A stretch of DNA of 64,000 nucleotides. Origin: Thiomicrorhabdus sp. zzn3. GTDB lineage: Bacteria; Pseudomonadota; Gammaproteobacteria; Thiomicrospirales; Thiomicrospiraceae. How positions within the stretch are numbered: the first letter of the stretch is position 1; each line of letters begins with the position of its first letter. The notes under the pieces were generated by a model, which did no database searches, was not told the origin of the DNA, and was given only the letters and a program-made list of their open reading frames with translations. Where the stretch lies: assembly GCF_029767755.1 (NCBI RefSeq), contig NZ_JARUQS010000002.1, positions 372,808-436,807 of the forward strand, given 5' to 3'. Of this stretch, positions 8,610 through 59,165 are shown one piece after another. A program made the translations under genes and the position numbers.

Positions 8610-8631
8610 AACGGAACAGGCCTGTTCCGTT
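8610..8631. repeat. Perfect 22-bp palindrome centred on CAGGCCTG
   Basis: The left half AACGGAACAGG is mirrored exactly. It lies 30 bases after the ccoS stop, ahead of the main terminator. As RNA it would form a stem without a loop, so a DNA-level role is equally likely. It is one member of the dispersed CAGGCCTG family. Confidence 0.9.
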
Positions 8632-8663
8632 TGTCAAAACAGTTTCTATTTTTTCACCTATAA

Positions 8664-8704
8664 AAAAGCCCGCTATAGAAAACCATCTGTGCGGGCTTTT
8701 TGCT
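8664..8704. terminator. Bidirectional terminator between ccoS and the convergent hypothetical gene
   Basis: AAAAGCCCGC (8664-8673) pairs with GCGGGCTTTT (8691-8700) around a 17-base loop, with an A run on the left and T-rich sequence on the right. It serves convergent transcripts from the cco genes and from the - strand gene ending at 8725. Confidence 0.85.
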
Positions 8705-8724
8705 TTTGAGGTGCAAGGCCGTGT

Positions 8725-9369: not shown

Positions 9370-9371
9370 GG

Positions 9372-9974: not shown

Positions 9975-9995
9975 AACAACTCCGTTGTCTTGGGT

Positions 9996-10376: not shown

Positions 10377-10813
10377 TAGACTTCAAGCCAGAAGGTGACG
10401 GGACCGTTATTGGTCAGCGAGACCTGCATGTCGGCACCAAAACGCCCGGTTTGCGGTGCCTGGTAAGCTTGTGTGACCGCAGCGACAAAGTCATCAAACA
10501 AAGGTTCGGCCTGCTGTGGTGGCATACTGCGGCTAAAACTGGGGCGCAACCCGGAACGGGTATCGGCCGCCAGGGTAAATTGCGGCACCAGCAACAGCTC
10601 ACCATTCACCTGCTGCACGTTCAGGTTCATTTTGTCGTTGTCATCGGCAAACAGGCGGTAGTGCAGCAGCTTATGGGTCATTTTCTGTACCGTCTCCATC
10701 GTGTCCTGCGGTTGGAATCCGGTCAATACCACCAGGCCTGAGCGGATTTTGCCCACGGTTTCACCTGCAATATCCACCTGCCCTTGAGTCACGCGTTGAA
10801 TCAGACAGATCAT
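10376..10813 (-). CDS. dtd: D-aminoacyl-tRNA deacylase
   Basis: DTD hydrolyses D-amino acids from mischarged tRNA in the cytoplasm. The N-terminal MICLIQRVTQGQV segment, the central KMNLNVQQ stretch, QFTLAADT...RPSF and the C-terminal NNGPVTFWLEV (the Gly-cisPro motif) match the family, as does the length of 145. The conserved SQxxT motif reads PQFTL here, with Pro in place of Ser. The start overlaps the pip stop by four bases (ATGA), so the two are translationally coupled. A CAGGCCTG copy lies in the coding sequence at 10733. Confidence 0.95.
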   Translation of the reverse strand: MICLIQRVTQGQVDIAGETVGKIRSGLVVLTGFQPQDTMETVQKMTHKLLHYRLFADDNDKMNLNVQQVNGELLLVPQFTLAADTRSGLRPSFSRSMPPQQAEPLFDDFVAAVTQAYQAPQTGRFGADMQVSLTNNGPVTFWLEV

Positions 10814-11772: not shown

Positions 11773-11833
11773 GTTATTCTGTATTTTTTCTGATTATTCC
11801 ATCAGTTTACCCAATTTATCGGGATTTTAAAGT

Positions 11834-11881
11834 AAAAAAGCCGATCTGAAAGGCAGCGAACTCCCTATTCAGACCGGCTTT
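11834..11881 (-). terminator. Terminator of typA
   Basis: A 14-position inverted repeat (AAAGCCGATCTGAA against TTCAGACCGGCTTT, one mismatch) lies 33 bases after the typA stop. Read on the - strand it ends in a run of six Ts, the right orientation for typA. Confidence 0.85.
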
Positions 11882-11913
11882 ATCAAGCGTTATGTGATGG
11901 GTAAACGTTTGGC

Positions 11914-13935: not shown

Positions 13936-13958
13936 ACAGGCCTGGTGGGCAGGCCTGT
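13936..13958. repeat. Inverted pair of CAGGCCTG copies forming a hairpin at a gene end
   Basis: ACAGGCCTG and CAGGCCTGT face each other around the loop GTGGG, giving a nine-pair stem. It lies ten bases past the stop of the YeeE/YedE gene (13969) and could terminate it, although the following T tract is short. The arrangement resembles inverted uptake-sequence pairs of Neisseria and Haemophilus, which act as terminators; the parallel is an inference. Confidence 0.85.
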
Positions 13959-13968
13959 CGAAAATACA

Positions 13969-16717: not shown

Positions 16718-19700
16718 TTACTGTGCAAAATCTTCCGGATCGTAACCCAGGTTCGGTGCGAGCCATTTTTCGGCTTCTTCGATCGTCCAATCTTTGCGCT
16801 GGGCGTAGTCTTCAACCTGATCGCGGCCGAGTGAACCGACACCGAAGTAGCGGCTTTCCGGATGCGCGAAGTAGGTTCCGGAAACTGCGGCGGTCGGTGT
16901 CATCGCAAAGCTTTCGGTGATGTCCAGGCCGATGGTGGTATCCGGTTTCAACAGTTCCCAAATCGTGCCTTTTTCGGTGTGATCCGGGCAAGCCGGATAA
17001 CCCGCCGCCGGACGGATACCCTGGTAGCGTTCACGGATCAGATCTTCGTTGTCCAGATTCTCGTCCGGCGCGTAGCCCCACTCTTGTTTACGTACCATTT
17101 CATGCAGGGTTTCGGCAAAGGCTTCGGCAAAACGGTCGGCCAGGGCTTTGAGCATAATCGAACGGTAGTCGTCATGCGCCGCTTCAAAGCGTTCGATGTG
17201 TTCGTCGATGCCGATCCCCGCGGTCACCGCGAAGAAACCGATGTAGTCGGCTACGCCGCTCTCTTTGGGGGCGATGAAATCCGACAGACAGTTGTTGGCT
17301 CCGCCGCGTTTTTTCTCCGCCTGCTGGCGCAGGTGGTGGAAAGTGTGCAGTACTTGGGTGCGCGATTCGTCGGTATAGACCTCAATGTCGTCGCCGACGC
17401 GGTTGGCCGGATAGAAGCCGTAAACCGCTTTGGCGGTGAGCCACTTCTCGTCGATGATCTGCTTGAGCATGATCTGGGCGTCGGCAAACACCTTGCGCGC
17501 CTCTTCACCGACGACCTTGTCATCGAGAATGCGCGGGTAGAGGCCGTGCAGCTCCCAGGACTGGAAGAACGGCGACCAGTCGAAACGCTCGACCAGTTTT
17601 TCCAGTGGGAAGTCTTCCAGCACCTTGTTGCCCAAGAAGCTCGGTTTGACCGGTGTGAATTCAGACCAGGCCTGCTCAGTCAGGGCTGGGTTTTCGCGCG
17701 CCTTGTTGATTGGAATACGCTTCACCTGTTTGGCTCGCGCTTTACGCTCCTCACGCACCTGTTCGTATTCGGCGCGGATCTTGGCGGCAAAGTCGGCTTT
17801 CAGGTCGTTGGAGATCAAGCTCTGCGCCACCCCCACGGCACGCGAGGCGTCTTTAACATACACGACCGGATGGTCGTATTGCGGTTCGATCTTCACTGCG
17901 GTGTGCGCTTTGGAGGTGGTCGCGCCACCGATCAGCAACGGCAGGTCCATATTGCGCTCTTTCATCAGTTTGGCGACATTGACCATCTCTTCCAGAGAGG
18001 GGGTGATCAACCCGGACAGGCCGATGACGTTGGCACCCTGTTCGATGGCGGTGTCGAGAATCTTCTCCGCCGGTACCATGACGCCGAGGTCGATGACCTC
18101 GAAATTGTTACATTGCAGCACTACGCCGACGATGTTCTTACCGATGTCGTGCACGTCGCCCTTAACGGTGGCCATGACAATTTTGCCTTGCGCCTGACCT
18201 TCGGCTTTTTGCGCCATCAGGTATGGGTCAAGATAGGCCACGGCGCGCTTCATCACGCGGGCGGATTTGACCACCTGCGGCAGGAACATTTTTCCGGAAC
18301 CGAACAGGTCGCCGACCACGTTCATGCCGTCCATCAATGGCCCTTCAATCACCAGCAGGGCCGAGCCGAGTTTTTGGTAGGCCTCTTCGGTATCGGCTTC
18401 AATGTAGTCGGTGATCCCTTTGACCAGTGCGTGTTCAAGGCGTTTTTCCACTGACTCTTCGCGCCAAGCGGTGTCTTGCACCTTACCGGCAGCCGTACCG
18501 TCGCCACGGAACTCTTCAGCCACTTCCAGCAGGCGCTCTCCGGCTTCAGGGTCTTTATTCAAGATAACGTCTTCAACGGCCAGGCGCAGTTTTTCCGGCA
18601 GGTTATCGTAGATCGCCATCTGTCCGGCGTTGACGATCCCCATGTCCATGCCTTCCTTGATCGCGTAGTAGAGGAAGACCGAGTGGATCGCTTCACGCAC
18701 CGGGTTGTTGCCGCGGAACGAGAAGGAGACGTTGGACACCCCGCCGGACACCTTGGCATAAGGCAGGTTCTGTTTGATCCAGGTGACGGCATTGATGAAG
18801 TCCAGGCCGTAGTTGTTGTGTTCTTCGATCCCGGTCGCCACCGCGAAGATGTTGGGGTCGAAAATAATGTCCTGCGGCAGGAAGCCAACCTTTTCGGTCA
18901 GCACCTTGTAGGAGCGTTCACAGATTTCGATTTTGCGTTCCAGGGTATCCGCCTGTCCGGTTTCGTCAAAGGCCATGACAATGGCGGCGGCGCCGTACTG
19001 TTTCACCAGTTTGGCCTGTTCGATGAACTTCTCTTCCCCCTCTTTCAGCGAGATAGAGTTGACCACGCCTTTACCCTGAATGCATTTCAGACCCGCCTCG
19101 ATGACCTCCCATTTGGAGGAGTCGATCATAATCGGTACCCGCGAGGCTTCCGGTTCCGACGCCAGCAGGTTGAGGAACTTAATCATGCATGCCTTGGCGT
19201 CGAGCATTCCTTCGTCCATATTGATGTCGATGATCTGGGCACCGTCTTCCACCTGCTTGACCGCAATTTCGATCGCTTCTTCGTAGTTCTCTTCGATGAT
19301 CAGGCGCTTGAATTTGGCGGAACCGGTGACGTTGTTACGCTCGCCGACGTTGACGAACAGCGAGCTCTCGTCGATGTTGAGCGGCTCCAGACCGGACAGG
19401 CGGCAGGCCGGTTGAATTTCCGGCAAGGCGCGCGCCGGGTGAGCCAGTGCCGCGTCTGCCATGGCTTTAACGTGATCCGGTGTGGTGCCGCAGCAACCGC
19501 CGATGATGTTGATCCAGCCTTTTTCCGCCCACACCGCGATCTCGGCCGCCATCTGTTCCGGGGTTTCGTCGTATTCGCCGAACTCGTTCGGCAGACCGGC
19601 GTTGGGGTGAACGGAGACATAGGTTTCGCAGACGCGGCTCAATTCCTCGACGTAAGGGCGCAGTTCCTCGGGCCCCAAAGCGCAGTTCAAACCGACCGAC

Positions 19701-20577: not shown

Positions 20578-21831
20578 TCAAAATTCGACTTCGACGCGGT
20601 TGCGCCCGGACTCCTTGGCGCGGTAGAGTGCTTTGTCCGCCTTGGCAATGGCTTCATCCAAGGATACGCCCGAGTAGGTGAGCCCTTGACTCAAGGTCAA
20701 GGGCAGACCGAGTGCATCCGGGGAGTGTTGCTCAATGCGGTGTCTCAGGGTTTCACTTAGTGATTCGATCTCACTCGCATCGTTGACTTCTCCAAGAATG
20801 CAGAACTCCTCGCCGCCAAAGCGGGCCGCTAGAAAGTGATTGAAGGTGTCTTGAAGGTGTTGGCTGACAAATTGAATCGCCTCATCGCCCTTTTGATGAC
20901 CGTAGGTGTCATTGACCGATTTGAAGTGATCGATGTCCGCCATGAGTACAAAGAAGTACTTTTGATGGTTTTTAAGCTGGTCAAACAGCCATTGGCCATG
21001 GCTAAAGAAGTAGCCGCGGTTAAACAGGCCGGTTAAGGCGTCGGTGCGAGAAATATGTTCGATCTCTTTATAGGCGGCCGTCTGTTCAATGTTCTGTTTG
21101 ACGCGAACATACAGTTCTTCGGCGGTGAACTCGAGATTGAAAAAGTCGTTGACACCGTACTTCATCAGCTTAATCGCAGTGGCGATATTGGCACTGGTTT
21201 CGCAGGCCAGAATGGGCAGTTGATTTTGTGTGTACGACTGCCGCACACGGCTGACTACCTCATAGGGGGTGGAACTTTGGTCGCACGTGGCTTCGCTGCC
21301 TTCCAGCAGTACCAGATCGGGGTGTTTTTCGCGCAAAGCGGATAAGAATTCATTATTGTTCTCGAATACGGTGACCTGATAACGGTGGACGCGCAGCAGG
21401 CCTGAAAGTTTTGAGCTATAGTGGGATTTCCAGGAGGTGACCAGCCAGATGTGACGACGTGCGTTTTGGTATAGACGGAACGCGGTTTGCACGGCATAGT
21501 GAATCGCAGACGGGCTGTCTTTGACGACGTAATCGGCGACCTTTTGTTTGAACATCTCCTGGCGGGTTTTGTCATTATAGGTCGCAGTTAAGACGACCGT
21601 GGTAATGTGCCGGCTGTGGAGCAGTTCAATCGCTTCTCCCGGCTCGCCGTCGGGAAGGTGCAGATCGCTCAAACAGACCACAAAATGATAATCCGAACCC
21701 AAGAGTTTTCTGGCTTCCGCCAATGAATGGCAGGTCAGAATAGGCAGGCTCGTGAGTTTTTGTAACTGGTCTTTGAGCAGTAGGGTAATGGATTTTTGAT
21801 CGTCAATAATCAGAAAGGCGTCTTGGCTCAT
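20578..21831 (-). CDS. Diguanylate cyclase with two receiver domains (PleD-like layout)
   Basis: A REC-REC-GGDEF protein of 417 residues. The first receiver has DD at 10-11, the phosphoacceptor Asp near 56 (SDLHLPDG) and the Lys in VVKDS. The second has lost these: LVLLEGSEA puts Glu where Asp is expected and the acidic pocket is missing, so it is probably a dimerisation module. The GGDEF domain begins at DALTGLFNRGYF and has an intact active site GGEEF (near 337) but no RxxD inhibition site. It should make c-di-GMP. The ATG at 21831 is preferred to an upstream TTG. A weak terminator candidate follows before metH. Confidence 0.93.
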   Translation of the reverse strand: MSQDAFLIIDDQKSITLLLKDQLQKLTSLPILTCHSLAEARKLLGSDYHFVVCLSDLHLPDGEPGEAIELLHSRHITTVVLTATYNDKTRQEMFKQKVADYVVKDSPSAIHYAVQTAFRLYQNARRHIWLVTSWKSHYSSKLSGLLRVHRYQVTVFENNNEFLSALREKHPDLVLLEGSEATCDQSSTPYEVVSRVRQSYTQNQLPILACETSANIATAIKLMKYGVNDFFNLEFTAEELYVRVKQNIEQTAAYKEIEHISRTDALTGLFNRGYFFSHGQWLFDQLKNHQKYFFVLMADIDHFKSVNDTYGHQKGDEAIQFVSQHLQDTFNHFLAARFGGEEFCILGEVNDASEIESLSETLRHRIEQHSPDALGLPLTLSQGLTYSGVSLDEAIAKADKALYRAKESGRNRVEVEF

Positions 21832-22162: not shown

Positions 22163-23257
22163 ATGCTCTGCCAAGTTTTTCCCCAAGACTATCAATCTCA
22201 ACTTGATGACAAAATTCAGCGTTTAACCGCGCTGTTGAATACCGATGCCCCGCTGTCCGTCTTTGCTTCCCCCAAACAGAACTACCGGGCACGTGCCGAA
22301 TTCCGCGTGTGGCATGATGACGACTCAACCGATTACATTATGTTTAACCCGGAAACGCGGGAGAAGGTCAAGCTGGATGCCTGCCCGATGGCATTGAAAG
22401 CGATTGATGAACTGATGCCTCAACTGATGCGGGAAATTGTGGCGACGCCGGTGTTACGTTTGAAGTTGTTTCAAGTGGATTTCTTGGCCACCTTGAGCGG
22501 TGAGATGCTGGTGACATTGATTTACCGGCGTCCGATTGAAACCGATCAGGCCTGGTTGGAAGCCGCGGAGCGTTTAAAAGAGAGGCTGCCGATTAATCAT
22601 ATTATTGGGCGTGCCCGCAAGCAGAAAGTGGTGCTCGATCAGGACTATGTGGTGGAACAGCTGCAGGTGGATGGCAAAAGCTTCACTTATCAGCAGGTAG
22701 AGAACAGTTTCACGCAGCCTAATCCGTTTATGGCGCAGCCTATGTTAGGCTGGAGTCGACAGATGGCGGAACGCTATTTTGATGCAGATCGGGATTTGAT
22801 TGAGCTGTACTGCGGTAACGGCCATTTTTCGATTGCCTTGGCCGAACGCTTTCGAAAAGTGCTCGCCACCGAGATTTCCAGAACCTCAGTGCAGTCGGCG
22901 CAGTTTAATATCGAAGCCAATGGCGTGCGCAATTTGACCATTCTCAAGATGGCGGCGGAAGAGGTGTCTGAAGCCTTGCAAGGCAAATCGTTTAACCGTC
23001 TCAAAGAGATCGATTTGGCCTCTTATGATTTTCAAACCATATTTGTCGATCCGCCGCGAGCCGGTTTGGATGATCTGACCCGCCAAATGGTGTGTGAATA
23101 CGATTGGATTTTATATATCTCCTGCAACCCGGAGACGTTGGCGCGTGATTTGCAGCACATTGCCCAAACCCATGATGTGGTGGAAACCGCTCTGTTTGAT
23201 CAGTTTCCGTACACCCACCACATCGAAAGTGGTGTATTGTTGAAACGTCGCGCTTAA
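22163..23257 (+). CDS. trmA: tRNA (uracil-54-C5)-methyltransferase TrmA
   Basis: TrmA makes ribothymidine at position 54 of tRNA using AdoMet. The features are clear: [11 protein letters not shown] near the N-terminus, [18 protein letters not shown], the AdoMet-binding [25 protein letters not shown], the nucleophile Cys in [13 protein letters not shown], and the C-terminal [17 protein letters not shown]. The lack of a CxxCxxC iron-sulfur motif fits TrmA and not RlmD. The start chosen ([14 protein letters not shown]) gives 364 residues, almost the E. coli length of 366. A CAGGCCTG copy lies within the gene. Confidence 0.95.
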
Positions 23258-25825: not shown

Positions 25826-25827
25826 TC

Positions 25828-26757
25828 ATGGCCAAAAAGCAGCCGATCCAAAATGAACAGGCCTGGTTGGGCGCGACTCTAAAAGGGTTGATTGTTCTTT
25901 TCAGCTGGTTGCCGTTGCGTTTGAATCAGGGGATCGGGATCGCTATCGGTTATCTATTGTGGTGGATTCCTAACAGCAATCGCCGAGTCAGTGAAAAAAA
26001 TCTCCAAGTCGCCTTTCCAAACCTCAGTGACGCACAGCGCAAGCAACTCCTGAAACGGAGTTTGCTGCATCTGGGCCAAGTGACGACCGAATTAGGGCCG
26101 GCTTGGCGCTGGCCGCAGTCAAAACTCTTGCCTTTGGTCAAGGAGGTGCGAGGCCAGGAGCTGATGGATGCGGCCGTCGCACAAGGCCGTGGCGTGTTGC
26201 TGCTCGCCCCGCATATCGGTGCTTGGGAAGTCAATGGCATGTATATGTCCGCTCTGCACCCTTCAACTTTTCTCTATCGCCCGCCGAATATTGCGTCAGT
26301 AGAGTCCTTTATGGTCAAGGCGCGCAGCCGTTATGGTGCCAAGCTGGCACCGACGGATGTTCGCGGCGTGCGTGACCTGATCAAGTCACTCAAGGCGAGC
26401 CACCTTTCGGCGATTCTGCCCGATCAAGATCCGGGAGAGCGTGGCGGGGTCTACGCGGCTTTTTTCGGGCGTCCGGCACGCACCATGACGCTGGTCTCCA
26501 AACTGATTCAGAAGTCGGACTGCGTGTTTCTGTTCGTGGTGATGGAGCGTCTGCCCAAGGGGCAGGGGTTTCGATTGCACTATCTGCCGGCGGAAGCGGA
26601 AGTCGCCAGTGACGATGAAAATGTCGCCGCTGCCGCCCTTAACCGCGGAGTGGAGGCCTGTATTGCCGTGGCACCGGAACAATATCTATGGTCTTACAAA
26701 CGCTATCGTAAGCCGCCGCCGGGCGTTGAGGATATTTATAAAAGCTCAAAAAACTGA
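25828..26757 (+). CDS. Lipid A acyltransferase, LpxL/HtrB family
   Basis: Acyltransferase that adds a secondary acyl chain to lipid A at the inner-membrane inner face. One N-terminal helix (about 17-47) is followed by NLQVAFPNLSD, the HX4E catalytic motif in APHIGAWEVNG, and the second family motif ILPDQDPGERGGVYAAFFGRP. Length 309 is typical. Which acyl chain it adds (lauroyl or myristoyl) cannot be told. It follows ttcA closely. Its TGA stop lies inside the palindrome at 26750-26775. Confidence 0.92.
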   Translation: MAKKQPIQNEQAWLGATLKGLIVLFSWLPLRLNQGIGIAIGYLLWWIPNSNRRVSEKNLQVAFPNLSDAQRKQLLKRSLLHLGQVTTELGPAWRWPQSKLLPLVKEVRGQELMDAAVAQGRGVLLLAPHIGAWEVNGMYMSALHPSTFLYRPPNIASVESFMVKARSRYGAKLAPTDVRGVRDLIKSLKASHLSAILPDQDPGERGGVYAAFFGRPARTMTLVSKLIQKSDCVFLFVVMERLPKGQGFRLHYLPAEAEVASDDENVAAAALNRGVEACIAVAPEQYLWSYKRYRKPPPGVEDIYKSSKN

Positions 26758-26775
26758 ACAGGCCTGTTCAGTTTT
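26750..26775. repeat. Perfect 26-bp palindrome at a convergent gene junction, centred on CAGGCCTG
   Basis: The left half AAAACTGAACAGG is mirrored exactly. It contains the stop codon of the acyltransferase gene (26755-26757) and, in the mirror position, the stop codon of the EamA gene on the other strand (26768-26770). With its A and T flanks it is probably a shared bidirectional terminator. The octamer CAGGCCTG forms the centre. Confidence 0.9.
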
Positions 26776-27691
26776 GGGGAGTGCGTGTCGACGGCTTTGA
26801 TGGGGAATAGGTTAAAAAGGTGACACCGCCAATCACCAATCCCAATCCGATGGCATGCCAGATGCCAAACGGTTCTTGTAAAATCCACACGGCTAGGACG
26901 ATGGTCACCATTGGCCCCAGCGAACCGATGATACCCGTTTGTGCCGGACCGATGCGGGCGATGGCCTCACTGATCATAAAGCTGGGAATGACGGTACTGA
27001 ACACCGCCAATAACGCCAACCACAACCAGGCCTGTTGAGAAACCTGAAGTGCGCTGAAATCAGCCAGCAAAGCATAGTGGGTGAGCACAAAAAGGCTGGA
27101 AATGGTCATGGCCAAACTGGTAAACCAGAGGCTGCCGACCCGATGAATCAGCTTCTTGCCGAACAGCACATAAAACGAAAAGCTCAGTGCGGCCAGAAAC
27201 ACCAGCAGTGTACCCAGCAGGGTTTGTTCTCCACTAAAACTCAACTCCTGGTAAAAGGCGACCCATAACCCTGAGTAAGTAATGACGAGAGAGAGCAAGA
27301 TCTTGCGGGTCAGCGGAGTTTTGAAAAACAGGGCGCCCAGCAGAGCGACCCAAATCGGGTAGGTAAACAGGGTTAACCTTTCGAGCTGCGCCGAGATCAT
27401 TTCCAGCCCTTTAAGATCGAGCCACGAAGAGAGGTAGTAGCCGATAAAGCCCAAAAAAGCGATTTGCAGCCATTTCCCTTGCACGATGGGAGCCTCTTGC
27501 TGTCGCCGCAGCCAGAGCATGATCGCAACATAGACCGGAAGCGCGATGGCCATACGCAGCATCAATACATCGTCGGTATTCAGGCCTTGCGCATAAGCGA
27601 GTTTGATAAAAATCGATTTTAGAGAAAACAGGGCGGTGCCGACAATAGCCAGCAGAAAACCGATTGCGGAAGCGGAAAGCCGGTCAGACAT
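26768..27691 (-). CDS. EamA/DMT family permease
   Basis: Drug/metabolite-transporter superfamily member with about ten helices in two five-helix halves. The first half contains ALFSLKSIFIKLAYAQG and the second ends with LAVWILQEPFGIWHAIGLGLVIGGV, both hallmark EamA segments. Substrates of such proteins are usually metabolites, not drugs; none can be assigned here. The ATG (MSDRLSASAIGF) lies nine bases after the methyltransferase stop; a longer frame begins with TTG inside that gene. Length 307. Confidence 0.9.
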   Translation of the reverse strand: MSDRLSASAIGFLLAIVGTALFSLKSIFIKLAYAQGLNTDDVLMLRMAIALPVYVAIMLWLRRQQEAPIVQGKWLQIAFLGFIGYYLSSWLDLKGLEMISAQLERLTLFTYPIWVALLGALFFKTPLTRKILLSLVITYSGLWVAFYQELSFSGEQTLLGTLLVFLAALSFSFYVLFGKKLIHRVGSLWFTSLAMTISSLFVLTHYALLADFSALQVSQQAWLWLALLAVFSTVIPSFMISEAIARIGPAQTGIIGSLGPMVTIVLAVWILQEPFGIWHAIGLGLVIGGVTFLTYSPSKPSTRTPQN

Positions 27692-40714: not shown

Positions 40715-43168
40715 ATGACAAATTTGGTGATCGTGGAGTCCCCGGCAAAAGCCAAGACCATTGAAAAATATCTGGGTAAAGATTTTACCGTGCGCTCCAG
40801 CTATGGCCACATTCGCGACATTCAGAAAAAAGGTATGGGGATTGACCTGGAAAACGGGTTTGTACCGAATTATGAGATATCTGCGGATAAAAAGAAGACC
40901 GTAAGTGAGCTCAAAAAACTGACCAAAACAGCAGATGCGGTTTGGCTGGCAACGGATGAGGACCGCGAGGGGGAGGCGATTGCCTGGCACCTTGCGGAAG
41001 CCCTAAATTTGGATGTGAACACCACCAAGCGTATCGTCTTCCATGAGATTACCAAGCCGGCGATTCAGCAAGCCATTGCCGAGCCGCGTACCGTGGATAT
41101 GGATTTGGTGAATGCGCAACAGGCGCGACGTATTCTTGATCGCATAGTGGGCTTTGAGCTGTCACCGATTCTGTGGAAAAAAATTCGCACAGGCCTGTCC
41201 GCCGGGCGAGTGCAATCGGTAGCGGTACGCTTGATTGTGGAACGTGAACGTGAAATTGAAGCCTTTGAATCCAACTTTGTCTTCCGTGTACAGGGGGGGC
41301 TGGAGCTGCTGGATGAGCAGGGGCAGGCCTGTGGAAATCTGGACGTGAAACGCACCGCAACGTTTGACACCGAAGCGGAAGCAACCGAGTTTTTACAAGC
41401 TGTGGCTCAGGCGAATTTAAGCGTTCTTTCTCTTGAGGAAAAGCCGGCCAAACGCAGCCCAAAAGCGCCGTTTACCACTTCGACATTACAGCAGGAGGCG
41501 GCTTCTAAGCTTGGTTTTTCGGTGAAGCAAACAATGATGATTGCGCAACGTTTGTATGAATCCGGAAAAATCACCTATATGCGTACCGACTCGGTGAATC
41601 TTTCCGAGTTGGCGATCGAGCAGGCCAAAAATGTCATTTGTGCCGATTATGGCAGTGAATATAGCGAGCCTCGTCGCTATCAAACCAAAAATGCCGATGC
41701 GCAAGAGGCGCACGAAGCCATTCGTCCCACCGATTTTAGTATGAAAATGGTCGAAGGTGAGCGCAATGAACAACGTCTATACCAGTTGATTTGGCGTCGT
41801 GCGATTGCATCGCAAATGGCGGAAGCCAAGTTGAAACGCACGACAGTCGAAATCGGCATTGACAGTCTACCGGGTGATAAGCTTTCAGCCAGGGGGGAAG
41901 TGGTGACCTTCGACGGTTTTTTGAAAGTGTATGACCTGGATCCGTCGGACGACAGTGGTTTGCTGCCGCCTATGCATGTGGGGCAGGCGTTGCGTGTGGC
42001 CGAACTCTCGGCGCGCCAGAGTTTTTCGCGCCCGCCGGCACGTTATAACGAAGCCAGTCTGGTACGAACGCTCGAAGAGATGGGGATTGGACGTCCTTCG
42101 ACCTATGCGCCGACCATTGATACGATTCAACAGCGCGGTTATGTGGTCAAAGAGGATCGTGAAGGCCAAGAGCGGGAGTATCGTCAGATTGTGCTCAAGT
42201 CAGGTCAAGTCAGTGCTGAAACGTTGACCGAAATGGCAGGGAGTGAGAAGAATAAGCTTTTCCCGACGGATATCGCCGGGATTGTGACCAACTTTCTGGT
42301 GAAGCATTTTGGAGAGATTCTCGATTATCAATTTACTGCGAAGGTTGAGGATAAATTTGATAACATCGCCCAAGGTAAAGTGCAATGGCAAGCGATGTTG
42401 GATGAGTTTTACCATCAGTTTCATCCGAAAGTGGTTTCGGCGGAAGATGTTTCCCGTGAAGAAGCCGGTCAGGCACGCTTCCTGGGCGAACACCCTAAAA
42501 GTGGCAAGCCGGTGTACGTCAAGATCGGTCGCTTTGGGCCTTATGTCCAGTTGGGGGATGGCGAAGGTGATGAGAAGCCAAGCTTTGCCAGTCTGATGCC
42601 GGGGCAGAAAATGGATGTGATCACCCTTGATCAAGCGCTTGAGCTGTTCAAACTGCCGCGTGAGGTCGGGGAAATGCCTGAAAGTTTCCGCGCTGAAGCC
42701 GTAGATGGCAGTGTGTTTGAAGTGCAAAAGGGGCAGAAGATTGTTGCCAAGCAGGGGCCGTTCGGTCCCTATCTCGAATACGGCCCCAAACAATATGCGC
42801 CAATCAAAGGGTTCGATCCGTTGAGTATTGAGCTGGAAGATGCGGTTGCGTTGATTGAGGCCAAAATTCAGGCGGATGCGGATAAGATCGTGAAAACTTT
42901 TCCTGGTACGGATGTGAAAATTTTGAAGGGTCGCTGGGGGCCGTATATCACGGATTTGGTAACCAAAAAGAACGCCAAGATTGCCAAAGATGAAGATCCG
43001 TTAGCCTTAACGCTGGAAGAGTGTCAGAAACGATTGGACGAGGCGCCGGAGCCGAAAAAACGCGGGCGTGCCGCAGCCAAGAAAGCCCCTGCTAAAAAGA
43101 CGGCGGCAAAGAAAACCGCTAAAACGGCTGCTAAAAAAACGACCACTAAGCGCAAAGCCTCCAAGTAG
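40715..43168 (+). CDS. topA: DNA topoisomerase I with a histone-H1-like tail and no zinc ribbons
   Basis: Type IA topoisomerase that relaxes negative supercoils. The TOPRIM domain has IVESPAKAKTIEKYL and the acidic triad in WLATDEDREGEAIAW. The catalytic Tyr is in GKITYMRTDS (about 288). The C-terminal part has three KxGPYxx-type repeat units (IGRFGPYVQLGDG, QGPFGPYLEYGP, KGRWGPYITD) in place of the four-Cys zinc ribbons of E. coli TopA. The end is a Lys/Ala-rich tail (about 780-817) with repeated KKTAAKKT-type units, like histone H1. Length 817. Confidence 0.96.
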   Translation: MTNLVIVESPAKAKTIEKYLGKDFTVRSSYGHIRDIQKKGMGIDLENGFVPNYEISADKKKTVSELKKLTKTADAVWLATDEDREGEAIAWHLAEALNLDVNTTKRIVFHEITKPAIQQAIAEPRTVDMDLVNAQQARRILDRIVGFELSPILWKKIRTGLSAGRVQSVAVRLIVEREREIEAFESNFVFRVQGGLELLDEQGQACGNLDVKRTATFDTEAEATEFLQAVAQANLSVLSLEEKPAKRSPKAPFTTSTLQQEAASKLGFSVKQTMMIAQRLYESGKITYMRTDSVNLSELAIEQAKNVICADYGSEYSEPRRYQTKNADAQEAHEAIRPTDFSMKMVEGERNEQRLYQLIWRRAIASQMAEAKLKRTTVEIGIDSLPGDKLSARGEVVTFDGFLKVYDLDPSDDSGLLPPMHVGQALRVAELSARQSFSRPPARYNEASLVRTLEEMGIGRPSTYAPTIDTIQQRGYVVKEDREGQEREYRQIVLKSGQVSAETLTEMAGSEKNKLFPTDIAGIVTNFLVKHFGEILDYQFTAKVEDKFDNIAQGKVQWQAMLDEFYHQFHPKVVSAEDVSREEAGQARFLGEHPKSGKPVYVKIGRFGPYVQLGDGEGDEKPSFASLMPGQKMDVITLDQALELFKLPREVGEMPESFRAEAVDGSVFEVQKGQKIVAKQGPFGPYLEYGPKQYAPIKGFDPLSIELEDAVALIEAKIQADADKIVKTFPGTDVKILKGRWGPYITDLVTKKNAKIAKDEDPLALTLEECQKRLDEAPEPKKRGRAAAKKAPAKKTAAKKTAKTAAKKTTTKRKASK

Positions 43169-46871: not shown

Positions 46872-47518
46872 TGTCACGAGATTATCGCTACGGACACCGA
46901 GGTCATAAGGGGTTTCAGCGCAAGTCTCAGCAAGTTGAGGCTAGCGATGGTAAGGCAGGCAGCCGAGTCTGGTTAGTTGGGGTGTTGCTTTCATTGTTGT
47001 TTGTAGGTGGTTTTTGGGTGGTTGACCACTTTATGGACGGTCAGCCGAAGAGTGTTGCCCCAGGCCTGTCTGAAATCTATGGCGAAGTAAACGCAGAGGT
47101 GATTGAGCCACCTAAAAGCTCGGCAATTACGGTAGAGGCGCTGCAACCTGTTCCTAGAAATCATGATGATGAAGGGCGCGATCGGCCCGAAAAATTAGAG
47201 AATCCAACCTACAGCTTTTATCAGGGGTTGAAAGAAACCGAAGTGGTGGTTGATGCCGTTCCCATTTCGGTTGAACTCGAGCATGCTTATTATATTCATG
47301 CCGGAAGTTTTGGGTCTGAGGCGGTGGCGCTGAAAGAACAACGGCGGTTAGCGAGATTAGGACAGGCTGTTGATTTGTCGCCATTGCACAGCAAGGGAAA
47401 AACCTACTATCGTTTACGTGTCGGCCCTTTCCATGACCGTTTAGAGATGAACCGAAAACGTAATGAACTGAGGCAGCTTGGTGTGGATACTTTGCTGGTC
47501 AGGGCGCCCAAGAATTGA
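46871..47518 (+). CDS. SPOR-domain cell-division-type protein (FtsN-like)
   Basis: A bitopic membrane protein of 215 residues. A basic cytoplasmic N-terminus is followed by one helix (about 33-51), a Pro- and acid-rich linker, and a C-terminal SPOR domain (about 138-213) with YYIHAGSFGSEAVALKEQRRLARLG and YYRLRVGPFHDR. SPOR domains bind denuded peptidoglycan at the septum. Position after argS matches similar genes in other gammaproteobacteria. The ATG overlaps the argS stop. FtsN is plausible but the essential N-terminal region is not recognisable. Confidence 0.88.
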   Translation: MSRDYRYGHRGHKGFQRKSQQVEASDGKAGSRVWLVGVLLSLLFVGGFWVVDHFMDGQPKSVAPGLSEIYGEVNAEVIEPPKSSAITVEALQPVPRNHDDEGRDRPEKLENPTYSFYQGLKETEVVVDAVPISVELEHAYYIHAGSFGSEAVALKEQRRLARLGQAVDLSPLHSKGKTYYRLRVGPFHDRLEMNRKRNELRQLGVDTLLVRAPKN

Positions 47519-49138: not shown

Positions 49139-50686
49139 GTGTTAGCTTCGGTAGTCACTCGTGCATCAGTCGGAATTGATGCCCCTAAGGTTGTAGTGGA
49201 GGTGCATGCCAGTAATGGTTTGCCTGGCTTTTCTGTCGTCGGGCTTCCTGAGGCATCGGTTCGAGAGAGTAAAGACCGAGTTCGTAGTGCGTTATTGAGT
49301 TGTGGGTTTCAACTTCCTCCCAAACGAATTACGGTTAATCTTGCCCCTGCCGATTTGCCTAAATCTGGCGGGCGTTATGACTTGGCTATTGCATTAGGTA
49401 TTCTCGTCGCTACAGAGCAGCTGCGCGTCAGTCTTGACGACTATGAATTTTTAGGCGAGTTAAGCTTGAATGGTGAAATTCGTGAGGTCCCGGGCGTGTT
49501 ACCATCGGTTATCCGTGCGCAAGAGGCCGCAAGCTGTTTGGTTATCCCCGCAGGCAATCTTAAAGAGGCAAGTCTGGCGATCAAACCAGCGGAGGTGTTT
49601 GATGAGCCCGCAGCGGAGGCTGGCAAGGTACTGGTTGCGAATCATTTGTTACAATTGTGCCGTTTTTTAATGGATCAAGACACACTGATTGAAGCCAAGA
49701 CGCAACTGTTTGATCAGCCATTTTACGATGTGGATTTGTCTGATGTAAGGGGGCAGGCCCAAGCAAAACGCGTTCTTGAATTGAGTGCCAGTGGCGGACA
49801 TTCACTGTTGATGGTCGGCCCTCCCGGTTCGGGCAAGAGTATGTTAGCGCAGAGGTTGGTCACACTTTTGCCCGAGCTTAACCGGGAGCAAGCCATGGAG
49901 TTGGCCACTATTCATTCGGTAGCCGGGAAAAGAATTGATTTAGAAAATGGCATCAGGCGGCAAATAGTCAGTCCTCACCATACGGCTTCCTCAGCGGCAT
50001 TGGTAGGCGGTGGGAGCGTTCCAAAACCAGGTGCAATCAGTTTGGCGCATCATGGGGTTTTATTTTTGGACGAACTGCCTGAGTTTTCACGAAATGTGCT
50101 TGAGGCTTTAAGGGAGCCGCTGGAGACCCGCCGCGTTGAAATTTCCAGAGTTAGTCAGCAGGCCTCCTATCCTGCCAACTTTTTACTGGTAGCCGCGATG
50201 AATCCCACTCCAAGCGGTTATTTTCCAGACGACCCTCATGGCCGCTGTAAAGATTCTCCGGATCAAATCGCTCGTTACCAGCGGAAAGTGTCGGGTCCAC
50301 TGTTGGATCGGATTGATCTGCATCTTGAAATTCCGCCGGTTGATTTTGATTCATTACAGACCAATGTATCGTCGACTCATGAAGAGACCAGCGAGCAGAT
50401 TAGGGAACGGGTTACCCGTTTGCATGATATGCAGCGTAGGCGGCAAGGTTGCCTTAATAGCGAATTAACTTCCGTGCAAATTAAAGAACACATAGAAATC
50501 GATCAACAGGGCAGCCAACTTTTGAAAAATGCGATTGAAAAAATGGGAATTTCTGCGCGTAGCTACCATCGGATTTTACGAATAGCCCGAACGTTGGCTG
50601 ATATGGAAGGTAACGATGATGTTAAGGTGCCACACCTGGCAGAGGCGATCGGTTATCGAAGCTTTGACCGAAACGGGATCAATTAA
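49139..50686 (+). CDS. comM: ComM/YifB family Mg-chelatase-like AAA+ helicase
   Basis: ComM promotes branch migration during natural transformation, and its homologue YifB is widespread. The N-terminal ChlI-like domain starts MLASVVTRASVGIDAPKV; the AAA+ domain has Walker A GPPGSGKSMLAQ and Walker B LFLDELPEF. The C-terminal Mg-chelatase domain ends with ARSYHRILRIARTLAD. The start is GTG, with GAGG seven bases before it. Length 515 matches. It lies between ubiK and the TauE/DsbD-like gene, whose start overlaps its stop. Confidence 0.95.
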   Translation: MLASVVTRASVGIDAPKVVVEVHASNGLPGFSVVGLPEASVRESKDRVRSALLSCGFQLPPKRITVNLAPADLPKSGGRYDLAIALGILVATEQLRVSLDDYEFLGELSLNGEIREVPGVLPSVIRAQEAASCLVIPAGNLKEASLAIKPAEVFDEPAAEAGKVLVANHLLQLCRFLMDQDTLIEAKTQLFDQPFYDVDLSDVRGQAQAKRVLELSASGGHSLLMVGPPGSGKSMLAQRLVTLLPELNREQAMELATIHSVAGKRIDLENGIRRQIVSPHHTASSAALVGGGSVPKPGAISLAHHGVLFLDELPEFSRNVLEALREPLETRRVEISRVSQQASYPANFLLVAAMNPTPSGYFPDDPHGRCKDSPDQIARYQRKVSGPLLDRIDLHLEIPPVDFDSLQTNVSSTHEETSEQIRERVTRLHDMQRRRQGCLNSELTSVQIKEHIEIDQQGSQLLKNAIEKMGISARSYHRILRIARTLADMEGNDDVKVPHLAEAIGYRSFDRNGIN

Positions 50687-51378
50687 TGGAGTCGATTTGG
50701 ATTACTGCTGTCATTGTCGGTCTACTGGGCGGCGTGCATTGTTTAGGAATGTGCGGGGGAGTCGTCGGAGCATTAACGTTTAGTTTAGATCCCCGTGTAC
50801 AGCGAAGCTGGCCAAACATGTTGTTATATCAGTTGGCTTATAACGGCGGGCGAATTTTTAGTTATATGTTAATCGGTTCCTTGTTTGGTTTCTTGGGAAT
50901 GGCATTGGGTTCTTTAGCGGCTCTGTTACCCGCTCAGCAGTTATTGCAGATACTTGCTGGCTTTTTTATGCTCGCACTGGGCCTCTATTTGGCGGGCTGG
51001 TGGAATGGCGTTGTGGTGGTTGAAAAACTTGGGAAAAGGCTTTGGGCAAAGATGCAACCTTATGCACAAAGATTGACGCCGGTTCGCTCACTGCCTCAGG
51101 CCTGGTGGTATGGAATGGTCTGGGGGTGGTTGCCATGTGGTTTGGTTTACAGCATGTTGATTATGGCATTGAGTGCCGGAGGCGCTGTAGAAGGGGCTTT
51201 GGTGATGCTGGCTTTTGGGTTGGGAACGCTGCCTAATTTAATGTTAATGGGAGTGTTTGCTTTTTATTTCACCCGTCTGGCAAGGCAGAAATGGCTCAGA
51301 ATAATGGCTGGGTTAGGGGTGATGGCGCTTGGTTTTTGGCAATTTTATTTGGCGCTAACATTGCAGGTTGGGCATTAA
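50686..51378 (+). CDS. TauE/DsbD-like six-helix membrane protein of the cbb3-associated type
   Basis: A 230-residue membrane protein with about six helices. The characteristic start GLLGGVHCLGMCGGVVGAL carries a Cys pair in the first helix and the second half has GMVWGWLPCGLVYSML with another conserved Cys, an arrangement found in the UreH/DsbD_2-type family. Relatives are often next to cbb3 genes and linked to copper or cytochrome maturation. Here it is at comM, far from the cco locus. Its ATG overlaps the comM stop by one base. The function is not settled. Confidence 0.85.
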   Translation: MESIWITAVIVGLLGGVHCLGMCGGVVGALTFSLDPRVQRSWPNMLLYQLAYNGGRIFSYMLIGSLFGFLGMALGSLAALLPAQQLLQILAGFFMLALGLYLAGWWNGVVVVEKLGKRLWAKMQPYAQRLTPVRSLPQAWWYGMVWGWLPCGLVYSMLIMALSAGGAVEGALVMLAFGLGTLPNLMLMGVFAFYFTRLARQKWLRIMAGLGVMALGFWQFYLALTLQVGH

Positions 51379-55550: not shown

Positions 55551-55608
55551 ATGCGTTTGCAGTCTCGTGTAGGTAGGTTGGTGAAGCACACTTTATTTCC
55601 AATACTGG

Positions 55609-56973
55609 CTATGATTCGCGTAATGCCAGTTCCCTGGCTTTGATAATGGGTTTTAACAAGTAATCTAATATTGTGTGCTTACCAACAATGATATCAACAC
55701 TCGCCGTCATCCCCGGTAGTAGGTAAAGAGGCATCTCCTCAGTGCCAAGGTGATTTTTAACAGTTTGGATGCGAGCAATGTAAAAGCTATTGCCTTCCTC
55801 ATCAGTAATGGTGTCAGCTGAAATTCTTGTCACGGTGCCTTCTAAACCGCCGTAAATCGCAAAATCATAGGCGGTAAATTTTACTTTTGCTTTAAGGCCA
55901 GGGTGAATGAAGCCAATATCCGATGGCAAAATCTTGGTTTCGAGAATCAGTCGATCGTCATTTGGAACGATTTCAACGATGTCGCTTCCTGGTTGGACGA
56001 CGCCGCCGATGGTATTGACCAAAAACTGTTTAATGGTTCCGTTGACCGGTGAGGTGACAGAGGTGCGTCGAACGCGGTCGGCCAGCGCTGTACTCGACTG
56101 TTCAATCTGGCTGATTTCGGCCAACACATCATTCAGTTCTTGATGCGCATCATTCATGAACTCTTCTTTGGCCTGGATACGCTTGTTTTCAGCTTCCTGA
56201 ATAATGGATTTGAGTTTTGGAATGCTGTTGCGCGTGGTCTTGAGTTTGCTGAGCGCATCGTTTTCTTCACGCTGGGTTTTAAGCAGGTCGACTTCGGAGG
56301 CAATTCCCTGTTTCACAAGGGGTTTCATCATGCTGATTTCGCGCGAGAGGAGTTTGTATGAACGAGTCAATTGCACTTCCTGGCTATAGGCCTCTTTCAG
56401 TTCCAGCTTATGCTGTTCGATTTGCGAAGCTAGAATAGAATCTTGAGTTAGCAGTTGCTTTTGACGCGATTGATAAAGATCGTATTCGCGATCATATAAA
56501 GCTTGTTCAACTGGGTTGTCAAAGGCCTTCGGTGGTTCGAATTTATTGCCAAAAGCTTCGGCACGCAAGCGCTCAGCCCGAGCTTGTAATTGCATGGAAC
56601 GTACTTGACTTTCTCCGAATGAACTGGCGAATTGGGTATTGTCCAACTTTAGGATAACATCGCCTTTTTTGACTTTGTCGCCCGCTTGAAAAAAGATATT
56701 TTCGACAATCCCGCCTTCAAGGTTTTGGACGATTTGTATTTTTGAAGAAGGCACAACCTTGCCTTCACCACGTACAATTTTGTCGAGTTCGGCATAGTTT
56801 GCCCATGTGATTAGCCAAATAATCACCAAAAGCATCACCCAGACAAGAATTTGTGACTTGCGTGTCGGTTTTTCGAGAGCAGCCTGACTTAGACTGTCCA
56901 TAAACTCGAGGTCGTCATTGCTTACCCTTTGTTTGGGATGCATTGGGTTTGTAGATTGGTTCTTGTCCGTCAT
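55609..56973 (-). CDS. HlyD-family membrane fusion protein, LapC-like
   Basis: Periplasmic adaptor of a type I secretion system linking the ABC exporter to TolC. A single membrane helix (about 40-59) follows an N-terminal cytoplasmic segment. The lipoyl-type half motif IVQNLEGGIVENIFFQAGDKVKKGD begins the periplasmic part; long coiled-coil arms (about 130-300) and the second lipoyl half and beta-barrel region (VNGTIKQFLVNTIGGVVQPG) follow. Length 454 matches. Two bases separate it from the ABC gene. Confidence 0.93.
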   Translation of the reverse strand: MTDKNQSTNPMHPKQRVSNDDLEFMDSLSQAALEKPTRKSQILVWVMLLVIIWLITWANYAELDKIVRGEGKVVPSSKIQIVQNLEGGIVENIFFQAGDKVKKGDVILKLDNTQFASSFGESQVRSMQLQARAERLRAEAFGNKFEPPKAFDNPVEQALYDREYDLYQSRQKQLLTQDSILASQIEQHKLELKEAYSQEVQLTRSYKLLSREISMMKPLVKQGIASEVDLLKTQREENDALSKLKTTRNSIPKLKSIIQEAENKRIQAKEEFMNDAHQELNDVLAEISQIEQSSTALADRVRRTSVTSPVNGTIKQFLVNTIGGVVQPGSDIVEIVPNDDRLILETKILPSDIGFIHPGLKAKVKFTAYDFAIYGGLEGTVTRISADTITDEEGNSFYIARIQTVKNHLGTEEMPLYLLPGMTASVDIIVGKHTILDYLLKPIIKARELALRES

Positions 56974-56975
56974 AT

Positions 56976-59165
56976 TTAATGGCTTTTGTTAATGCGTCCT
57001 GTTTTTAAAGCTTCCAGAACAGACTGTTTTTCACCGTCCGCAATGAGTTTTCCGTTATCCATAACCATGAGGCGTTCGGTCAGTTGCAGCAGACTCATTT
57101 TGTGAGTCACTACGATAGAAGTATTTTTTATGGTGCCTTCTTTCAAACGGTCAATCATCATCTGTTCGGACTTGGCATCTAATGAATTCGTGGGCTCATC
57201 GAACAGGTAAATAGGCGCATCTATCAATAGCGCGCGGGCGACACCGATGCTTTGACGCTGTCCGCCAGACAGTGATTTACCCCCTTCATTGATTTTCAGG
57301 CTATATCCTGATGGGTGCTGCTTAACAAAGTCATCGACTCCGGCCAGACGGGCCGCTTTAATAATGCGATCATCCTCAATATAGGGTGCTCGATAGGCGA
57401 TATTTTCTCGGACATCACCGCTGAAGAGGGTCACTTCTTGGGGGACATAGTTGATGTTACGTCTCAATTCAGCAGGATCAAGTTGGGTAATATCGATTCC
57501 ATCTATCAAGATCGTTCCCTCTGTTGGGGGGTAGAAGCCGAGGATCAGTTTTTCGATCGTGGTTTTTCCTGAACCGATACGACCGATGATGCCCACTTTT
57601 TCGCCCGGCTTGATTTTAAAGCTCACATGGCTCAGAGCCGGTTTGGTTTCACCAGGGTAGGTGAAGCTGACATCAACGAATTCAATCGAGCCCTCAAAGT
57701 GCGGGTGTTGGATGAAACGTTTTGATGATGGACGCTCAATCTCTTTTTTCATTAACTCATTCAGACTGTTCAGGGCGGTACGGGTTTGATGATAACTAGA
57801 TGTCAAGTTGGCAAATTGTCCCATTGGCCCGATTGCACGTTGACTGAGCATGACCGTAGCGATAAGCCCACCCATGGTAAGGTCACCTTCTTGAATCAGA
57901 TAAACACCGGATAGCACAATCAGTACAGTACTCATTTGTTGCATAAAGCCTGTTGCCCGCCCAATAGAGCTTTGCAGCATTTTAGAACGGATGCTGGCAC
58001 GGGCGATTTCTCCAACCGCTTGTTCCCATTTCCATTGAGAGTGAGCTTCCACGCCCAAGGATTTAATGGTGTCGATGGCGGTCAGGGTTTCGATCAGAAC
58101 CGCATTTTTTTGGCTGTTTGCTTCGTAAGTGGCTTCGATGCTGTGTTGAATCGGGCGTTTGAGAAGGAGGCTGTAGAGCATAATCAGAAGGATGATGCCA
58201 ATGGGAACCAAAACAATGCTACCCGCAATGTAAAAGATCACCAGAAGGAAAATGATGACAAAGGGAAGGTCAACCAAAGAGGCAATGGTTCCTGAGGTAA
58301 AGAAGTTTCGAATACTGTCGAACTCACGAAGGTTATTGGCAAAGGCTCCAATGCTTCCTTCGCGATTTGCCATGGTTAACCCGAGTGTTTGTTCAAAAAG
58401 TTTGGCTGACATTAGCACATCGCTTTTTTTACCGGCCACCTCCAGAAAATAAGAGCGAAGAAATTTAAGAATAATGTCGAACATATACACTACGCTGACC
58501 CCTATAGCCAGGACCCATAGAGATTCAATCGCGTTGTTGGGAACGACGCGGTCATAGACATTCATTACAAACAGTGGGTTGGCCAGGATAAATAGGTTGA
58601 TGACGATCGAGGCGATCAAAACATCACGATACACTGAACGAGAAGACCAGAGCGTACTCCAGAACCAATGGCCTTTTTCAATGCCGATTAAGCTCTCTTG
58701 TTTATTTTCATAGAAGCTTTTCTGGGTCAAGTAGACCGCATAGCCAGTGTAGTCGTCTTCAAGAGAGGCAAAATCAACGACCTTCTTTCCCTCTTCATTT
58801 TCGGGAAAAAGCAACGTGGCTTGCTGGTTATCAAAATCTAAGTGCTCAAGTAGGCAGGCCTGCTGATTTTTAAGAATAAGAATGCATGGAAGCACCAGGT
58901 TTGACAACTCATCGAGCCGTTTTTGTTTGAAGCTCGCGGCTAAACCAGCACGGCTCGCAGCACGTTTAAAGATATCTGGTGTAATGGCTTCGGACTCAAT
59001 AGGAAGGCCAGCAATCAAAGAATCTTTCGAAACGGGGTTTCGATTGAGCTTGCTGTACAACACCAAACAGTCAAGCAGGGGACTGTGAATGCCTTGGTAT
59101 GCCGATTTTTTTTCATTCTCGATCACATCGTTGGCAATAACGGTCTCTGTTGAAGGTTGATCCAT
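56976..59165 (-). CDS. Type I secretion ABC exporter with C39-like domain, LapB-like
   Basis: Inner-membrane exporter of 729 residues for RTX-type adhesins. The N-terminal C39-like domain (about 25-150) lacks the catalytic Cys: PLLDCLVLYSKLNRNPVS has the fold but no GG-peptidase motif, as in LapB/HlyB. The six-helix membrane domain (about 175-460) precedes the ATPase, with Walker A GRIGSGKTTIEK, signature LSGGQRQSIGVAR, Walker B IYLFDEPT and the switch His in VVTHKMSLL. A CAGGCCTG copy is at 58855. The promoter should lie in the 119-base gap before it. Confidence 0.95.
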   Translation of the reverse strand: MDQPSTETVIANDVIENEKKSAYQGIHSPLLDCLVLYSKLNRNPVSKDSLIAGLPIESEAITPDIFKRAASRAGLAASFKQKRLDELSNLVLPCILILKNQQACLLEHLDFDNQQATLLFPENEEGKKVVDFASLEDDYTGYAVYLTQKSFYENKQESLIGIEKGHWFWSTLWSSRSVYRDVLIASIVINLFILANPLFVMNVYDRVVPNNAIESLWVLAIGVSVVYMFDIILKFLRSYFLEVAGKKSDVLMSAKLFEQTLGLTMANREGSIGAFANNLREFDSIRNFFTSGTIASLVDLPFVIIFLLVIFYIAGSIVLVPIGIILLIMLYSLLLKRPIQHSIEATYEANSQKNAVLIETLTAIDTIKSLGVEAHSQWKWEQAVGEIARASIRSKMLQSSIGRATGFMQQMSTVLIVLSGVYLIQEGDLTMGGLIATVMLSQRAIGPMGQFANLTSSYHQTRTALNSLNELMKKEIERPSSKRFIQHPHFEGSIEFVDVSFTYPGETKPALSHVSFKIKPGEKVGIIGRIGSGKTTIEKLILGFYPPTEGTILIDGIDITQLDPAELRRNINYVPQEVTLFSGDVRENIAYRAPYIEDDRIIKAARLAGVDDFVKQHPSGYSLKINEGGKSLSGGQRQSIGVARALLIDAPIYLFDEPTNSLDAKSEQMMIDRLKEGTIKNTSIVVTHKMSLLQLTERLMVMDNGKLIADGEKQSVLEALKTGRINKSH

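Follow-up and report, generated by a model that had tools for sequence, protein, structure and literature searches.

A palindromic octamer at the core of a symmetric, highly iterated element in Thiomicrorhabdus, and its possible role in self-recognition

The window analyzed here, a 64,000-nucleotide stretch of Thiomicrorhabdus sp. zzn3 DNA (contig NZ_JARUQS010000002.1, positions 372,808 to 436,807), carries 20 copies of the palindromic octamer CAGGCCTG between positions 8617 and 58862 (Table 1). The genome from which it comes (G000) comprises 2.37 Mb in six contigs. An original prediction, made from the letters of the window, had reported these copies, and every one was confirmed at its span. 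According to the open reading frame (ORF) list, 16 lie in likely genes and those at 8617, 13937, 13950 and 26759 lie between genes, bearing out the claim that coding and intergenic DNA both hold the word. One hundred dinucleotide shuffles gave a mean of 0.86 copies and a maximum of 5, in keeping with the roughly one copy that had been expected by chance. No other 8-mer of the window is as over-represented as CAGGCCTG, for which about 1.7 sites (order-2 Markov model) or 2.0 sites (order-3) are expected once both-strand figures are halved. The hexamer AGGCCT, said to be raised about threefold, occurs 94 times against 31 expected in both-strand counts. Also in the window, as context only, are dprA, which encodes DNA processing protein A and belongs to transformation and recombination, and a second gene that we take, from the original prediction and general knowledge, to be comM; Pfam supports the DNA_processg_A and Mg_chelatase/ChlI assignments of these two genes, both of which had been noted. 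Next to the first palindrome, at 8725-9369, is a 214-amino acid (aa) ORF for which Pfam gave no match at an E value of 0.001.

Table 1 Copies of CAGGCCTG and two context genes in the window
Feature	Position	Strand	Context
CAGGCCTG	8617..8624	.	between two convergent genes, within long palindrome ACGGAACAGGCCTGTTCCGT; hairpin fold z -3.10
CAGGCCTG	10733..10740	.	within D-Tyr-tRNA deacylase gene
CAGGCCTG	13937..13944	.	first of close pair, upstream of bipA (typA); pair folds as hairpin, z -3.03
CAGGCCTG	13950..13957	.	second of close pair, spacing 13 bp
CAGGCCTG	17667..17674	.	within 1240-aa ORF
CAGGCCTG	21397..21404	.	within response-regulator/GGDEF gene
CAGGCCTG	22547..22554	.	within tRNA_U5-meth_tr gene
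CAGGCCTG	25858..25865	.	within lipid A acyltransferase gene
CAGGCCTG	26759..26766	.	10-bp gap of two convergent genes; center of AAAACTGAACAGGCCTGTTCAGTTTT; hairpin z -2.85
CAGGCCTG	27027..27034	.	within EamA transporter gene
CAGGCCTG	27812..27819	.	within methyltransferase-domain gene
CAGGCCTG	28951..28958	.	within trkH
CAGGCCTG	32111..32118	.	within sigma-54 response-regulator gene; kept in 3/4 aligned relatives, CAGGCCGG in T. cannonii
CAGGCCTG	35436..35443	.	within DUF4390 gene
CAGGCCTG	37257..37264	.	within fmt
CAGGCCTG	41190..41197	.	within topA, read T-G-L; kept in 3/10 aligned relatives, substituted ungapped in 7
CAGGCCTG	41324..41331	.	within topA
CAGGCCTG	47061..47068	.	within SPOR-domain gene
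CAGGCCTG	51097..51104	.	within DsbD_2 gene
CAGGCCTG	58855..58862	.	within ABC-transporter gene
dprA	38400..39509	+	context only; Pfam DNA_processg_A, E 6.6e-80
comM-like Mg_chelatase/ChlI gene	49139..50686	+	context only; Pfam Mg_chelatase, E 5.4e-86

Genome-wide, CAGGCCTG occurs 859 times and the control word GTCCGGAC (CAGGCCTG reversed) 21 times. Its both-strand count in a 396-kb sample of the genome was 294 against 23.0 expected at order 3, which made it the top 8-mer by far. In this sample, then, the count is not close to a Markov expectation, the outcome that the original prediction had named as refuting it. A GC-rich palindrome at such frequency is what would be expected of a highly iterated palindrome (HIP), and hundreds to thousands of copies in genic and intergenic DNA (90 coding and 81 noncoding in an enlarged sample) are what would be expected of a DNA uptake sequence (DUS) or uptake signal sequence (USS). 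Placement was scored in the 396-kb sample with a home-made gene caller: 77 copies were coding (0.22 per kb) and 70 noncoding (1.46 per kb), a noncoding density 6.6 times the coding one. The coding copies are divided 40, 33 and 4 among the reading frames and fall on the common peptides AGL, TGL, QAW and QAC. Codon usage, the other way in which the enrichment might have been explained away, was rejected as the cause because noncoding density exceeds coding density and the coding copies fall mainly into two frames rather than one.

Conservation was assessed in 21 pairwise comparisons of homologous stretches, which share genomes and are not independent. Sites were kept above octamers of the same composition in all 21 pairs, the core being kept in 25-100% of sites present in either genome and control octamers in 0-9% (32-35% in two close pairs). 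Pairs within the window's genus lie mostly at the low end (for example, 2/8, 4/12 and 2/8). Single sites therefore turn over, and density stays similar. At the topA site at 41190, ten relatives align ungapped and seven differ, and the word was therefore gained or lost there by substitution; small gaps are present in some other alignments of orthologous sites. A mobile repeat of the repetitive extragenic palindromic (REP) type would insert into intact sites and be extragenic; the ungapped substitution and the many coding copies show neither behavior. That base composition, codon usage or a spreading REP-like repeat explains the word is barely credible: the common peptides beneath the coding copies would suit it, but it is already contradicted by the scarcity of the reversed word, by the noncoding excess and by the substitution at 41190.

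Noncoding copies cluster just 3' of genes, at a median of 32 bp past the stop. The gaps that separate called genes contain 66 copies, of which 28 are in convergent, 31 in tandem and 7 in divergent gaps, and the noncoding densities are 4.33, 1.38 and 0.77 per kb, respectively. Four of the seven spacings below 60 bp are exactly 25 bp, and three noncoding stretches of the window fold as hairpins with z near -3, so that the paired or terminator-like placement of DUS and USS is found here as well. The peak between convergent genes, the position past stops and the folding of all three noncoding stretches examined would likewise suit an element that is mainly a bidirectional transcription terminator, with genic copies as by-products. 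We regard this as very improbable, given that coding sites make up 90 of the 171 in the enlarged sample and have non-random flanks, that GGCC sits in the hairpin loop of the two single-copy folds, where a terminator would need no fixed letters, and that a simple search for terminators in 20 kb of the window picked out a single stem containing the word (27026-27047). Copies become fewer as bins become richer in AT (Spearman 0.42 with GC). Even spacing is not claimed: the variance/mean ratio was 0.66 in 5-kb bins of the sample, yet other settings disagree, and for the first 100 sites of contig 1 it ran from 0.52 to 1.50 (P 0.017 to 0.90), depending on bin, range and pair merging.

Both flanks, read toward the core, follow AAWCTGAN, and the genome holds 72 copies of the longer word TGANCAGGCCTGNTCA and 0 of its reversal. 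Genic flanks were compared with a background of the same tripeptides in the same register, for which some control sets are small (4-17 for one frame). Chi-square values (3 degrees of freedom) lay between 26 and 85 at positions -2 to -4 and -6 to -8, which marks these bases as non-random; the departure was weak at -1 (8.7) and -5 (7.2), and -9 was at background (0.7). Because the departure reaches -8 and not -9, the footprint in G000 is about 24 bp; it appears shorter in the relative G021. These comparisons show that, in G000, CAGGCCTG forms the center of a symmetric element some 24 bp long, and the lineage keeps hundreds of copies of it. Polarity was evaluated in 11 fits on G000, G021, G052 and G027, each against eight re-paired controls. 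The polar flank model beat all eight controls in one fit, that of the coding sites of G021 (n = 38) and not of G021 as a whole. The scores of the left flank and the right flank are positively correlated (r 0.30), which may partly reflect stronger flanks at noncoding sites. A one-sided reading of the flanks, in which averages near 0.5 might mask a mixture, was rejected on this correlation and on the outcome of the polar fits. Chi, which stimulates RecBCD/AddAB recombination, is also an over-represented, lineage-specific octamer; unlike the present element, with flanks symmetric in 10 of the 11 fits, it is polar and is not known to be favored 3' of genes.

The distribution of CAGGCCTG was followed in a family set of 62 genomes, identical to the order set. 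Thirty-one of them are copy-rich (409-1173 copies), one has 236 and 30 are copy-poor (0-74). The window's genus is itself mixed, with 14 copy-rich genomes, one at 236 and 17 copy-poor. Of 370 class genomes (completeness at least 90%), 365 are from other families, and the maximum in these was 338 copies, in a 4.1-Mb genome. TopA-based relatives were drawn from 34 loci, and the tree used 30 relatives and one outgroup. Thiomicrorhabdus sp. ZW0627 and T. chilensis are the nearest named relatives by TopA, which agrees with the Thiomicrospira-like lineage originally assigned. On this tree the copy-rich state, scored from short stretches, changes at least four times; T. arctica was scored low, yet has 522 copies in its genome. 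The 96.8-kb secondary contig of G021 is poorer, with 3 copies in 20 kb versus 9-11 in five chromosome stretches. No description of the motif was found in open-licence literature on Thiomicrospira, Hydrogenovibrio and Thiomicrorhabdus or on uptake and palindromes, consistent with the earlier statement that none was known in Thiomicrospira-like genomes; a palindrome mentioned in the available excerpt of PMC6501319 belongs to the abbreviation of clustered regularly interspaced short palindromic repeats (CRISPR) and is not a motif. A comparison of TTGACCAGGCCTGGTCAA and ACTGANCAGGCCTGNTCAGT with virus contigs gave no match, which says little.

Related species carry the element in dialects, as is the case for DUS and USS. 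The dialect words of relatives are ACCAGGCCTGGT, ACCGGCCGGT and the one-sided AAAACTCAACAGGCCGGGT. Forms of ACCAGGCCTGGT occur in G021, G022, G032, G026, G006 and G061, the dialect of G052 is A[CG]CAGGCCTG, and that of G027 is ACCGGCCGGT, with CCGGCCGG counted 76 times in 160 kb against 1.1 expected. G023 and G037 share AACAGGCCGG, the word list for G037 being drawn from a small sample of 8 kb; CAGGCCGG occurs 1111 times in G023 (control 83) and 633 times in G037 (control 44). The G023 site has the one-sided form AAAACTCAA-CAGGCCGG-GT, with AAAACTCAA to the left, only GT to the right and an A run on one side. T. cannonii has CAGGCCGG at the site orthologous to 32111, and its 22-kb locus holds nine copies of CAGGCCGG and none of CAGGCCTG. 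Samples of 17-60 kb from G025, G029, G031, G043, G030, G039, G041, G050, G004, G008 and G013 showed no comparable word. G007 and G046 were also sampled, and repeat arrays or poly-C runs dominate both lists.

Other repeated words were met in these relatives. Runs of C or G of at least 8 are strongly over-represented in copy-poor metagenome-assembled relatives (L051-L052 of G046, L089, L090 and L093); the 39 octamer counts of such runs in 24.7 kb of G046 may represent phase-variable tracts or an assembly effect. Repeat arrays, possibly CRISPR or other arrays, lead the word counts in L057-L058 (G007) and L074-L075 (G005), with about 28 and 19 copies of some 10-mers, respectively. A tandem array with the unit ACAAG/AGACA in G025 (L033-L035) raises several 10-mers to 22 counts in 60 kb.

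Six families (PF00145, PF01555, ComEC, PF16732, PF12019 and PilT/PilU) were searched across the 62 genomes. Among the 31 copy-rich genomes, the methylase family PF00145 matches 10 and PF01555 matches 12, some of the matches being weak or partial. PF00145 is absent from G000 and from 21 copy-rich genomes in all; PF01555 is absent from 19, and G000 has one. Thirteen copy-rich genomes, 11 of them at least 99% complete, match neither family, other methylase families, including other adenine methylases, being outside the search. The usual methylase site is shorter than the genic flank preference, which extends to 8 bases per side. These results disfavor the proposal that CAGGCCTG is a palindrome like cyanobacterial HIP1 that arises or persists through DNA methylation and mismatch repair, and we consider that explanation improbable. 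It does draw on real likenesses: HIP1 and the alternative HIPs are iterated GC-centered palindromes with alternatives in some relatives, coding copies, symmetry-keeping extensions and one-mismatch copies raised at outer positions (excerpt of PMC4390886), and in G000 near-misses of CAGGCCTG are raised at the outer positions only. Methyltransferases are, however, the main correlate of HIP1 in the same excerpt.

We tentatively favor the reading that the element is, quite possibly, a self-recognition sequence of the uptake type that serves transformation and is read as a dyad. The resemblance to uptake sequences rests on dialects with a common center, paired placement 3' of genes, synonymous use within genes and the presence of ComEC in all 31 copy-rich genomes (and in 25 of the other 31). 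The uptake candidate of the original prediction thus gains from dialects, placement and ComEC, and loses by its palindromic symmetry and by the gaps in PilT/PilU. PilT/PilU were found above the cut-off in 52 of the 62 genomes, among them 24 of the 31 copy-rich ones.

Several results weigh against uptake. The strongest is that an entire clade lacks PilT/PilU and yet has the full copy number. Seven copy-rich genomes have no PilT/PilU (G010, G015, G048, G052, G053, G057 and G060), and five of these (G010, G015, G052, G053 and G060) reach a completeness of 99% or more. Uptake normally depends on pilus retraction, and deltapilT cells are nontransformable (excerpt of PMC5142622). The five nevertheless carry about 0.50 copies per kb in sampled stretches, have no excess of near-misses and conserve their sites relative to controls: 22/30 (0.32), 6/10 (0.35), 6/10 (0.07) and 7/10 (0.08). 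At 90% identity these PilT-less pairs (22/30 and 6/10) are not above some more distant PilT-bearing pairs (5/5 and 7/8), and other PilT-bearing pairs are low (2/8, 4/12 and 2/8), with no close PilT-bearing pairs for comparison. Copy-poor genomes mostly retain ComEC and PilT. The known receptor family is lacking: ComP_DUS (PF16732) is above cut-off in 0 of 62 genomes, diverged pilins being outside the reach of the search, and GspH (PF12019) gave only weak matches in three copy-poor genomes of the 62. All dialects seen, with one exception, have a palindromic core. A polar, non-palindromic motif would be expected of DUS or USS; the G023 dialect is polar, and polar flanks were not supported in 10 of the 11 fits described above. 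Finally, one-mismatch copies in G000 are not in excess (189 versus about 192), and a second count gave 232 versus 224.9, with the outer positions alone raised (84 versus 46.1). In H. influenzae, one-mismatch USS are over-represented, with 764 beside 1471 (excerpt of PMC1939737). In the Neisseriaceae, near-miss DUS add 21% to the perfect copies in K. oralis and outnumber them in other species (excerpt of PMC3630211), and the one-mismatch test is weak because these levels vary so widely. Uptake free of a retraction motor, or a recent loss of PilT/PilU, would reconcile the PilT-less clade with an uptake sequence.

Some pilus and competence genes are of interest in their own right. G052, G053 and G060 form one Thiomicrospira clade on the ComEC tree (L221, L222 and L226), without PilT/PilU, and its ComEC branch is very long (1.35 changes per column), as if constraint had changed. 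The near-complete sister genomes G010 and G015 have an ATPase frame of PilB length (563 aa) and no PilT/PilU above cut-off. G000 carries a PilT/PilU pair, pseudopilins like those of type II secretion systems, and two clusters of unusual, large pilins (L181:11736-17513 and L182:8204-12881). Three of the large pilins, of 456-500 aa, are related (30-36% identity to the first), have the N-methylation motif and show at most weak antifreeze-repeat matches in Pfam. They were dropped as candidates for the reader of CAGGCCTG, evidence being lacking.

A single DUS of the Neisseriaceae is not palindromic and the dyads of Simonsiella are pairs, whereas CAGGCCTG is itself a palindrome. Dyad symmetry is unusual for an uptake sequence, but it has a precedent in Simonsiella, where 1294 DUS occurrences are in overlapping dyad-symmetric pairs that, according to the authors, may indicate dimer-based recognition (excerpt of PMC3630211). 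The same excerpt describes genomes with about a thousand copies or more, dialects that differ from species to species, copies in genes and inverted pairs at terminators, all of which resemble the present case. In the Neisseriaceae, uptake is proven and the receptor ComP is known; here uptake is a prediction, no ComP_DUS member was found above cut-off in the 62 genomes, and a PilT/PilU-less clade keeps the word. USS of the Pasteurellaceae have a similar density, an AT-rich flank beside the core and two described dialects (excerpt of PMC12616744), and the G023 form, polar and with an A run, is like them. USS are, however, non-palindromic (same excerpt), and their one-mismatch forms are over-represented (excerpt of PMC1939737), which those of CAGGCCTG are not.

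The main rival is a cytoplasmic reader: a dimeric DNA-binding protein serving the nucleoid, recombination, repair or self-marking in defense, for which the 24-bp palindrome would be a density-dependent landmark and dialects would track changes in the protein. We consider this possible, although on the whole unlikely. It would account for a symmetric footprint of about 24 bp that holds inside genes as well, for the lack of polarity in 10 of 11 fits, for full density and conservation in genomes without PilT/PilU, and for turnover of single sites at similar density. No candidate protein emerged among the six families searched in the 62 genomes, the one-sided G023 dialect is ill-suited to a homodimer, and it is difficult to see how hundreds of sites could follow a change of specificity unless something like uptake drove them.

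If the element is an uptake sequence, a DNA-binding reader at the surface or in the periplasm would act on the dyad site as a dimer and favor DNA that bears the word, and recombination with the DNA of kin would spread and repair the word genome-wide. A change in the specificity of the reader would be followed by the sites and so yield a new dialect, as the dialects and one orthologous site suggest, and the word would fade where the reader is lost. The data partly show that copies just 3' of genes double as terminator-like hairpins and that genic copies exploit synonymous freedom.

Taken as a whole, the element could be a dyad self-recognition code, spread across much of this family of sulfur bacteria, with a protein-dimer reader and at least four dialects, one of them broken into a polar site, that is kept even without pilus retraction genes; it would then serve uptake through a novel kind of reader or else represent a cytoplasmic genome-marking system not described before, and we advance this broader proposal with some doubt. 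An uptake code, if true, would extend sequence-specific DNA uptake to the Thiomicrospira group and would offer a natural series of copy-rich, copy-poor and dialect-switched genomes in which to find the reader and study dialect change. If the element does not serve uptake, it is an iterated palindrome explained by neither the tested methylase families nor pilus retraction, and it bears on the question of HIP1. Because copy-rich and copy-poor species share one genus, the question is testable by gene-content comparison either way.

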